Shown in pieces: positions 56,458 through 59,620 of a stretch of DNA of 64,000 nt; position 1 is the first letter of the stretch; every line of letters starts with the position of its first letter. The stretch lies in the NCBI GenBank assembly GCA_964017145.1, contig OZ024840.1, positions 1,860,001 to 1,924,000 of the forward strand, given 5' to 3'. Origin of the DNA: Agrocybe praecox. Its lineage: Eukaryota > Basidiomycota > Agaricomycetes > Agaricales > Agrocybaceae. The notes beneath the pieces were generated by a model. It worked only from the letters and a program-made list of their open reading frames with translations. It ran no database searches and had not been told where the DNA came from. The position numbers and the translations under genes are program-made.

Positions 56458-57862
56458 TTAGCCGATACTCCGACGTAGATAGTGTTGTTTGCTTCTTCCA
56501 TGAGCATAATCGTATGCATTTCCCTGGAGTGTAGGTGGGACATAAAGCAGATCATTGGAGTACGAAGGACCACTATCATTCGGTCGTAGGCCGAGATAAG
56601 GAGCAGAAGCAGAAGCCATGGCGGAATGTATTCCTTGATACTGAGGAATGTTGGCAAAATAATGTGTCTGCTGTGGGTGCGTGGGGGACGGTGTCGTCAT
56701 AATTACTGCAAATGCGCCTGTTTCCGTTGAAGCAGACATGGCAGAGTGAGAAGGAGATGCGACGCCATAGGACCATGAGTCAACGCCTGGGAGCATCGGA
56801 GGAGGAAAAGCAGCGGATTGAGATGTTTGTGCTGGGACATTAGCTTGGAAGTAGGAGCCGCCGCCGCCGCTGCTGGATACTTGTGATACTCCTGGTGAAG
56901 TCGGCAGACTGAAGCCTGTTACATTGGCAGGTGCCGAGCGTGGTGGCGGCGGAAGATCCGATGACTACAATCGACGTTTTAGACGTATTGCATGTTCCAT
57001 GTCCATAGGTTTGCGGGATTTTCAAAGGATGAGAATTAGAACCCATATAAACCAATAAAAATCCATAACAGAAAGATGGACAGCAAAAAAGAGGGGGGCA
57101 ATTTCAGCGACGGTGACGCATTTTAGGACATATACTGGAAAAGAGAGAAAGAAAGAGAAAAGAGTAAGAACGGTGCTTTCCAGCGGTAACAAAGGTGGGT
57201 GGTGGACAAATAAATTATTGACAAGTCGTACTCACCATGTAAGGCATGGCCCTGGGTTGTTGGGGCTGCATTAGCATGTACCCTGGATGTGCACCTCCCA
57301 TCATCTGAGGGTATCCGTACTGATATCCCGGTGAGACTGGTGGAGATGGCACGCCGTAGTATCCTGGCACAGAGTGCGAATGTGACCGGGAATGGGGTGA
57401 CCGACGACGGTGATGTGAAGACGACTTGTGGTGAGGAGCAGTCATGTAGGTCTGCGGCATGACCATAGGAGCATGAGGCATCATCGGCATCGGTGCCAAC
57501 TGCTGTTGGTAAGGGGCGGGGTACTGATGCTGTTGAGGATACACGATGCCGGGGCTTGCCAGACGCATGGGCCCTGGGCCATCGCCATAATCATCGGATG
57601 ATTCTGATGCTGGAGATGGCGGATGGATGTACAACTGACGGGGCTGCTGAGAATGATGAGGACGCTTCAACTTGTTATGGTGGGATCCCGGTTGTGTTGG
57701 ACGAGCAGGGGGCGACGGGGAACGACTGCGAGGAGGACTTGGCTGGATTGCATGCTCAAACTGCGACCGATGCTGCTCCGTTTTGTCCACCCAATTCGCA
57801 ATCCGCACCTGAGTAGCCAAATATCGCTCATAAGCCTCTGGTGAAAAGTCGTACTCTGTCAT
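56458..57862 (-). CDS. low-complexity Pro/His/Ser/Tyr-rich protein, unknown
   Basis: Start at 57862: MTEYDFSPEAYERYLATQVRIANWVDKTEQHRSQFEHAIQ is a well-formed helical N-terminus. The rest is compositionally biased: Ser/His-rich (HHKSSSHHRRRSPHSRSHSHS), then Met/Pro/Gln/Tyr-rich. A large intron of about 270 nt runs from ~57240 to ~56967 and links to SSDLPPPPRSAPANVTGFS. A run SSSSGGGGSYFQ follows and the frame ends YLRRSIG at 56458. Such proteins in fungi are often transcription cofactors or RNA-granule proteins, but nothing here decides. The C-terminal exon choice is uncertain. Confidence 0.5.
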
Positions 57863-58293
57863 CGTCCAAGAAGAAAAGAAATAAAAAAAGAGGGAGAAGG
57901 CTCGAAAGCTGATGCTGATAAAGGTGGAAGAAGAACAATAGAGCAATTTATAGTAGTTGTAATGAGTCCGGCTATGAGCGTTACATGACAACACTATGGA
58001 GACTGTTCATCCGGAAGGCTCTGCTATTATCTAAAGGCTGTACTCCGTTGTATGTAACAAAACCGGATCTAACCTTCGGAACCCTGTTGTACCATTCATT
58101 GCCTTGCTTCATGTCATATAAATCCATCCAATCTGATCCATGTATTAAGAAAAAGCCACAACTATCAATGGAACGACGTTCTACGCCAATATGCAAGGTA
58201 TGTAGTACACTAAAATGACAATCCTCCTCAACAACATGAGGACTACACGTTCACATCTTTCCCATGAACCCGCGGAAACCTGTGCCCAACAGT
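57863..58293. other. intergenic region
   Basis: About 430 bp: promoter of the low-complexity gene and 3' UTR of the repeat peptide precursor. No gene supported. Confidence 0.5.
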
Positions 58294-59195
58294 TTAATAA
58301 GGCACAATGACGCCGTTGGGAGCCTTCGTAGCTTCCTCAGCAGGGATTGTGTTGATTGCCCGCTTCCTGTAGGGTACAATGACACCATTCGGCGCCTTGG
58401 TCGCCTCTTCAGCAGGGATTGTGTTGATTGCTCGCTTGTAAGGTTGAATGACTCCGTTGGGCGCTTTGGTTGCCTCCTCTTCGGGAATGCTGTTAATTGC
58501 TCGTTTTCGGTATGGCACAATAACACCGTTGGGCGCCTTGGTCGCTTCCTCAGCTGGGATAGTGTTAACTGCCCGCTTCCTGTAAGGCACAATAACACCA
58601 TTGGGCGCCTTGGTGGCCTCCTCAGCTGGGATTGTGTTGATGGCTCGCTTCCTATAGGGCACGATGACACCATTGGGCGCTTTGGTCGCTTCTTCAGCAG
58701 GGATTGTGTTAATTGCTCGCTTGTAAGGTTGAATAACTCCGTTGGGCGCTTTGGTTGCCTCCTCTTCGGGAATGGTGTTTACAGCCCGCTTGTATGGCTG
58801 GATAACACCGTTAGGCGCTTTGGTGGCTTCCTCCTCTGGGATTGTGTTTACCGCACGCTTCCTGTAGGGCACAATCACACCATTCGGCGCTTTTGTTGCC
58901 TCTTCGGCAGGGATGGTGTTGATCGCTCGCTTCCTGTATGGCACGATCACGCCGTTGGGAGCTTTAGTCGCCTCCTCGGCAGGAATGGTATTTACAGCGC
59001 GGACGTAAACTGGGATCGTCTCCAAAGGTTGAGGGGAGCGCTTGGCTACGGCGACCTGGAAATTATATGTTATTTTTGCTCGCAGCTTACGACAGTGACA
59101 AAACTTACCTTCATGGGCATTGGCATAGGAGCAGCCATAACATGGCCAGCCAAGAACCCAGTCAAGAGAGCAAGAACGACTTGTCGTGAAAGCAT
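58294..59195 (-). CDS. secreted Kex2-processed repeat peptide precursor
   Basis: Two exons, 59195-59109 and 59055-58294 (53-nt intron), 282 aa. Residues 1-21 (MLSRQVVLALLTGFLAGHVMA) are a signal peptide; APMPMPMK and VAVAKR follow, the latter a Kex2 site. A spacer SPQPLETIPVYVR leads into ten tandem units, each A[I/V]N[T/S]IP - [A/E]EEATKAPNGVI - [V/Q]PY, joined by RKR or KR. The last unit ends at PY with the stop codon, which shows the likely mature C-terminus after removal of the basic residues. Predicted products are 21-residue peptides without Cys. This is the layout of yeast alpha-factor, Ustilago Rep1 repellent and fungal RiPP precursors (UstA, GigA). No DUF3328/UstY-type modifying gene is present in the window, so an unmodified secreted peptide is the simpler reading. 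Confidence 0.85.
58297..58998 (-). repeat. ten tandem 63-72-bp coding repeats
   Basis: Units in coding order: 58998-58927, 58926-58855, 58854-58786, 58785-58717, 58716-58645, 58644-58573, 58572-58501, 58500-58432, 58431-58360, 58359-58297. Units 3, 4 and 8 are 69 bp (Glu/Gln/KR type), the last is 63 bp, the others 72 bp (Ala/Val/RKR type). Many differences between units are synonymous while the peptide hardly changes. Confidence 0.95.
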
Positions 59196-59620
59196 GTTGG
59201 TCGAAATGATTGTGTTAGGGGGGACGAAGTGAAAGTTGGCTAGCGCTACAGTTGCAAACTGGTAGATCGAAAGATAGGGCGCGCCTGCGGCCGGGGCTGA
59301 AATGTACAAGAAAAACTGGATGGGCGATTAATTGGAAAGAAAAATAACAAAAAATGTCAAATACTTACAAAAAGGAAGGACGAAAGGAAGGGGGGAGAAA
59401 GAGAGAGTGCGAACCGTGGTATTTAAGAGATCATACTGCCGACGACAACCCAGGAACATGGGACGGTTGATGAGCAGATGGTCGTAAGCAGCAACCAATG
59501 ATATTTAGATCGCGACCGGCACCTTAAATTAGCTCACACGTGATTGGCTATATTTTTACTTGGCCAATTTCTCACTTCGGCGCTGCATTACCTGCCTCCG
59601 CTCTCTACTACAAAAAAATT
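59196..59620. other. divergent promoter between the repeat peptide precursor and ESF1
   Basis: About 425 bp separating two start codons. It should carry both promoters; I see no distinct regulatory motif I can support. Confidence 0.5.

Follow-up and report, generated by a model that had tools for sequence, protein, structure and literature searches.

A predicted ten-unit KEP precursor of Agrocybe praecox resembles Coprinopsis cinerea KEP 497993 in sequence and is under purifying selection in every copy

A 64,000-nucleotide (64-kb) stretch of the Agrocybe praecox genome (hereafter, the window) carries a gene predicted to encode a precursor of ten 21-residue units, and comparison of the unit sequences indicates that this precursor is a relative of KEP 497993 of Coprinopsis cinerea, not an undescribed kind. 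The encoded peptide is under purifying selection in all ten copies. The reading that we favor, with real reservations, is that of a Kex2/Kex1-processed KEP, related to KEP 497993, that would release linear 21-mers likely to act as an extracellular signal. What the present analysis adds to an earlier sequence-only reading of this DNA is the constraint on the copies, the existence of two unit types, a corrected first processing site and the published relative.

The precursor gene is located on the minus strand, with the ATG at 59195 and the stop codon at 58296-58294, and the spliced translation reproduces exactly the limits, 58294-59195, at which a ten-copy precursor had been placed. The spliced product is 282 amino acids long. 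Because the unspliced frame stops after 41 amino acids, the reading frame is open only once the single predicted intron, a GT-AG intron of 53 nt at 59108-59056, is removed. Exon 1 (59109-59195, minus strand; 29 codons) encodes a hydrophobic N-terminus, likely a signal peptide, and the start of a pro-region, and exon 2 (58294-59055, minus strand) encodes the end of the pro-region, the ten units and the stop. A scan for donors and acceptors additionally predicts a possible 5' UTR intron at 59297-59368 (minus strand), with a GTAAGT donor at 59368 and an acceptor ending at 59297 or, alternatively, at 59316. The precursor begins with the hydrophobic sequence MLSRQVVLALLTGFLAGHVMA, and the mean hydropathy of residues 6-15 is 2.71, in agreement with the N-terminal signal peptide proposed previously; by this simple hydropathy criterion, residues 1-21 likely constitute the signal peptide, with cleavage after residue 21 and VMA preceding the cut. 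Neither Cys nor Trp is present anywhere in the precursor.

The organization of the pro-region had been described only in part correctly. This short region indeed ends with a dibasic site (AKR, with KR at residues 34-35), but the site does not adjoin the first unit: SPQPLETIPVYVR intervenes between the KR and unit 1, so that the residue directly in front of unit 1 is a lone Arg (VYVR). The segment between the KR and the lone Arg, SPQPLETIPVYV, corresponds to precursor residues 36-47 (window positions 58998-59090, minus strand) and opens with XP dipeptides; the fragment released after the KR would begin SP-QP and would fit the XP dipeptides of the Ste13 type. Because C. cinerea KEP 497993 yields, besides its longer peptide, pyro-QVPVDEPA, which was found in both the supernatant and the mycelium (PMC9769878), SPQPLETIPVYV may, by analogy, be a separate small peptide.

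Searches of known domains and structures with the precursor yielded weak matches at most. Pfam listed three families, none above the curated cut-off (best E 0.0029), and the sequences of the PDB gave four weak matches with E from 0.015 to 1.4 (E8, LRRTM, a designed protein and a leucine-rich repeat protein). A single-sequence structure model of exon 2, with a mean pLDDT of 41.7 and 236 of the 253 residues below 50, is too poor to judge the fold. A simple scan of the 64-kb window revealed no second KEP-like frame, and among the matches listed for the exon-2 protein in the 59.17-Mb genome, there was one, the protein itself.

The ten units follow the consensus A[IV]N[TS]IP[AE]EEATKAPNGVI[VQ]PY, with a mean pairwise identity of 92% at the amino acid level in the sense frame. 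As stated in the earlier reading, all ten are 21 residues long, free of Cys and start with AIN or AVN, and the nine gaps between them are without exception basic (RKR in six, KR in three). Each unit contains three Pro, one Gly and a single, C-terminal Tyr, and GRAVY ranges from 0.16 to -0.48. The array accounts for the two top rows reported by Tandem Repeats Finder (scores 725 and 635), against a score of 64 for the single remaining row in the window; likewise, a degenerate DNA pattern for [K][R]A-I-N-T-I-P, with at most two mismatches, has 9 matches compared to 0.01 expected. The final unit reads VIVPY and then stops, with no basic residues, as had been noted, and the detection of the matching C. 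cinerea peptide with PY and PYK ends (PMC9769878) is in line with the mature C-terminus deduced from this observation.

The units, all on the minus strand, fall into two linked types. Seven have Ala7 and Val19, and the six of these that are followed by another unit are followed by RKR: unit 1 (58936-58998, AVN, with the single Arg before it), unit 2 (58864-58926, AIN), unit 5 (58654-58716, AIN), unit 6 (58582-58644, AIN), unit 7 (58510-58572, AVN) and unit 9 (58369-58431, AIN), whereas unit 10 (58297-58359, AIN) ends with PY and the stop. In the remaining three, with Glu7 and Gln19, the linker that follows is KR: unit 3 (58792-58854, AVN), unit 4 (58723-58785, AVN) and unit 8 (58438-58500, AINS). 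Three randomly placed Glu7 units would coincide with the Gln19 units with a probability of 1 in 120; shared descent of units 3, 4 and 8 is enough to explain this linkage. The predicted monoisotopic masses are 2167.15 or 2153.14 Da for the A7/V19 peptides and 2240.13 Da for the E7/Q19 peptides, the two sequences of the latter type being isobaric; the corresponding [M+H]+ values are 2168.160, 2154.144 and 2241.140. Given that, in Pichia, several C. cinerea KEP products apparently originate from cuts after a single Arg (PMC9769878), unit 1 may be freed as well despite the lone Arg, perhaps less efficiently.

The sequence-only reading recognized no relative in sequence and considered that the peptide could be undescribed. 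This view has to be abandoned because KEP 497993 has been reported, together with at least 13 homologues from further agaricomycete species (Vogt et al. 2022, PMC9769878). When expressed in Pichia, C. cinerea KEP 497993 gave rise to pyro-QIPAELPTKSINGNIEPYKV along with four forms shortened at the C-terminus (PMC9769878). In C. cinerea itself, pyro-QIPAELPTKSINGNIEPY and a form ending with PYK were detected by mass spectrometry, primarily in premature caps (PMC9769878). The peptide forms described for this KEP are pyro-QIPAELPTKSINGNIEPY, -PYK and -PYKV (PMC9769878).

Aligned with the A7 unit, QIPAELPTKSINGNIEPYKV is identical in 11 of the 17 ungapped columns, with the core IPAE..TK..NG.I.PY, in a comparison that involves one short published peptide. 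With each of the four unit variants, none of 3000 shuffles scored as well, although for one variant the best shuffle reached 45 compared to 49. When the C. cinerea peptide was compared to the 64-kb window in six frames, the ten best places were the ten units, with scores of 49-53; the next-best place scored 42, and the best score over 60 shuffled peptides was 44. Three other published KEP peptides attained best scores of 27, 28 and 34 in the window, all away from the array. A search of the 59.17-Mb genome with the C. cinerea 20-mer gave no match, the query being too short for this emptiness to be informative, and the likeness to KEP 497993 therefore rests on ungapped scoring. In the freely available main texts searched, NGNIEPY occurs in PMC9769878 only; of the unit fragments, neither NGVIVPY nor NGVIQPY is present, and neither are the variants NGVIEPY and NGVIIPY. 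No relatives of the array were confirmed among prokaryote genome contigs (25 pattern matches) or viral contigs (2 pattern matches).

The two precursors thus share the KEP layout and the core IP[A]E..TK..NG.I.PY, and the detected PY and PYK ends of the C. cinerea peptide fit the PY end predicted here. The differences are in the number of copies, ten in this case, and at the N-terminus, where the A. praecox units are three residues longer, with A[IV]N preceding the residue that aligns with the Gln of the C. cinerea peptide. This N-terminal Gln is missing in all ten units, which have Thr or Ser in the aligned place. Because the units lack a starting Gln, the 21-mers are not expected to carry the pyroglutamate cap seen in C. 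cinerea.

Purifying selection is apparent from the comparison of the units with one another. Over the 45 unit pairs, pN/pS is 0.069 (mean pS 0.735, mean pN 0.051). No two units are identical at the DNA level; in 12 of the 45 pairs, the peptide is the same, and these pairs differ on average by 10.7 silent changes. All 21 third codon positions vary between units, compared to two first and three second positions. In the five non-sense frames, the identity between units is 40-77%, and the frame with the highest value (antisense, offset 1) contains stops in seven of the ten units. An antisense ORF of 322 amino acids (58264-59232, plus strand) spans the whole array, remaining open since the repeats are spaced by multiples of three nucleotides; with the units 43% alike in its frame versus 92% in the sense frame, we rejected it as a gene. 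The closest pair, units 4 and 8, differs by three silent and two replacement changes. Full saturation of the silent sites was also rejected: there are 10.42 same-residue differences per pair compared to 11.65 when the codons are dealt anew, and none of 2000 deals was as low, so that some shared history of the units remains. Because the silent sites are near saturation and no two units are alike in DNA, the array is old and has not been subject to recent evening-out at the DNA level. Furthermore, because all ten copies are kept even though they could replace one another, the constraint suggests that either the dose of the peptide or freedom from faulty peptide is important.

Under the favored reading, the precursor would enter the secretory pathway, a kexin (Kex2) would cut after the KR and RKR linkers, and a Kex1-type carboxypeptidase would then trim the Lys and Arg residues. 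Up to ten linear, PY-ended peptides of 21 residues, in the two isoform classes A7/V19 and E7/Q19, would be exported and would act as an extracellular signal. We infer the splicing, secretion, cleavage, mature ends and signaling role alike, drawing for the processing on the C. cinerea case and on general knowledge of Kex2. The units, the linkers and the N-terminus all support the Kex2-type multi-peptide architecture and the predicted secretion envisaged in the sequence-only reading.

Candidate genes for this processing are present in the 59.17-Mb genome, where the numbers of profile matches are lower bounds. P_proprotein has at least five matches at three loci, and upstream of each locus, on the same strand, lies a Peptidase_S8 match; likewise, three kex2 genes are reported in C. 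cinerea and other agaricomycetes (PMC9769878). Two of these kexin-like loci, approximately 3.3 kb apart on the same strand of contig C13 (2727459-2731167), look like a tandem pair. There are at least 31 matches to S10 carboxypeptidases, Kex1 and others together, at least three to DPPIV_N, all in one place, and at least 13 to M28, glutaminyl cyclase and others together. Those C. cinerea KEP peptides that were examined remained present in every kex knockout measured, which the authors read as redundancy (PMC9769878), so no single kexin has been shown to be needed; two cap peptides were measurable only in those kex-knockout strains that fruited (PMC9769878).

Besides this persistence in the kex knockouts, two observations speak against our reading. 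One is the lone Arg in front of unit 1, where a dibasic site is missing. The other is that the knockout of KEP 497993, in which pyro-QIPAELPTKSINGNIEPY, its PYK form and pyro-QVPVDEPA were all gone, showed normal growth and fruiting (PMC9769878). Given that growth and fruiting were normal in all six kep knockouts, 497993 included, the C. cinerea authors favor a role towards the biotic environment and not in development (PMC9769878). Accordingly, it is quite possible, if not our first choice, that the same processing takes place and that the released peptides act on animals, bacteria or other fungi instead of signaling to the fungus itself. Against such a role, synthetic KEP peptides were reported to cause no inhibition of five bacterial strains (PMC9769878), and a pN/pS of 0.07 would be strong constraint for a peptide engaged in an arms race. 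For the function, our best inference is an extracellular signal, which we rate as only modestly more probable than an action on other organisms.

The remaining alternatives concern the fate of the precursor or of its products and are much less probable. Rep1 of Ustilago maydis has the identical layout of repeats separated by Kex2 sites, and its products are amphipathic peptides of 35-53 amino acids that form amyloid-like fibrils (PMC4617103). Surface-active fibrils on hyphal walls, as formed by these repellents, appear improbable in the present case, with units of 21 amino acids compared to the 35-53 reported for Rep1 (PMC4617103), three Pro and one Gly in each and GRAVY of 0.16 to -0.48. Here, Rep1 is set apart by its description rather than by sequence comparison, and the earlier claim that Rep1 and the mating factors are similar in layout only stands.

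A dikaritin-like fate, in which UstYa-type enzymes cyclize the peptides at Tyr, is at least as improbable. The precursors of the dikaritins ustiloxin, phomopsin and asperipin combine a signal peptide with repeated Tyr-containing cores between Kex2 sites (PMC9769878); the present precursor is alike in layout, with one C-terminal Tyr in each unit, and the genome contains at least 17 UstYa (DUF3328) matches. However, none of the matches listed is in the 64-kb window, the nearest one on the same contig being approximately 2.46 Mb away, and the peptide detected for the relative in C. cinerea was linear and bore no modification other than pyroglutamate (PMC9769878). Because a UstYa match is absent from the window, the 21-residue product is likely linear. 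The UstYa matches, on contigs C1, C3, C7, C9 and C10, form groups on C1 at 4.38 Mb, C3 at 4.02 Mb, C9 at 3.14 Mb and C10 at 1.70 Mb, and these neighboring matches are possible dikaritin-like gene clusters. Finally, that the uncut precursor serves as a structural repeat protein of the cell wall is hardly credible: cleavage in A. praecox is a prediction from sequence, but all nine linkers are KR or RKR, none follows the last unit, where no cut is needed, and C. cinerea was found to contain the relative's peptides in free form (PMC9769878).

The preferred reading, a processed KEP with a likely signaling role, also has to be placed among the other known systems. KEPs are widespread in fungi, and most are reported to have no known role (PMC9769878). 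The features of KEPs are found here in the form of the repeats, the Kex2 sites in all nine gaps between units and, by the simple hydropathy criterion, the N-terminal signal peptide. Among the KEP types delineated previously, G-1/P-2 (#7) includes 64 KEPs from 62 strains and 49 genera, or 1.03 per strain, with high Tyr content (Umemura 2020, PMC7329392). A DUF3328 gene was reported within 15 genes of none of these 64 KEPs (PMC7329392), and the genera represented include Coprinopsis, Pleurotus, Hypsizygus and Panaeolus (PMC7329392). The present gene resembles the reported type in that its product contains Tyr, that one copy was found in the genome and that no DUF3328 match lies in the window; the genera fit as well, and our guess is that this type is the family of KEP 497993 and of the present gene. 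The precursors of ascomycete alpha-type pheromones and the alpha-like basidiomycete KEPs similarly consist of a signal peptide and repeats separated by Kex2 sites (PMC6339444, PMC9769878). The layout is shared, whereas the units described here start with AI or AV, without the XA or XP of the Ste13 signature, and lack Trp.

The precursor gene stands among housekeeping genes. An ESF1-like gene (RRM_ESF1, NUC153), at approximately 59.6-61.9 kb on the plus strand, adjoins it on one side. To the left, an ORF of 215 amino acids at 57215-57862 (minus strand) has no Pfam match, and further left of the array, Pfam identifies ribosomal S9 and L4, a histidine-biosynthesis gene and Pal1; altogether, 10 of the 20 frames compared to Pfam matched at E <=0.001. 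The last two of these genes are in keeping with a fungal genome, and the KEP relative and the three kexin loci would suit an agaricomycete. Elsewhere in the assembly, only four matches to 5.8S rRNA were listed (39 of 2062 candidates scored), all on contig C217 at 8538-51530, the first three at a spacing of approximately 12.25 kb and the last one a further 18.3 kb away. Their sequence is divergent and looks more animal- or nematode-like than fungal; it may represent contamination or fast-evolving rDNA.

Taken together, these results identify a gene whose product resembles a peptide reported to be conserved in agaricomycetes and truly made in C. cinerea, where the knockout appears normal in the laboratory. 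With the two isoform classes and their exact masses, targets for mass spectrometry are now available. It is conceivable, although we consider it unlikely, that the product acts as a peptide hormone conserved among mushroom-forming fungi, a linear extracellular signal in two isoform classes for which dose or purity would be so critical that selection polices each of the ten copies on its own, with silent sites nearly saturated and the peptide scarcely altered. The constraint on every copy points to a genuine function that went unnoticed under laboratory growth.
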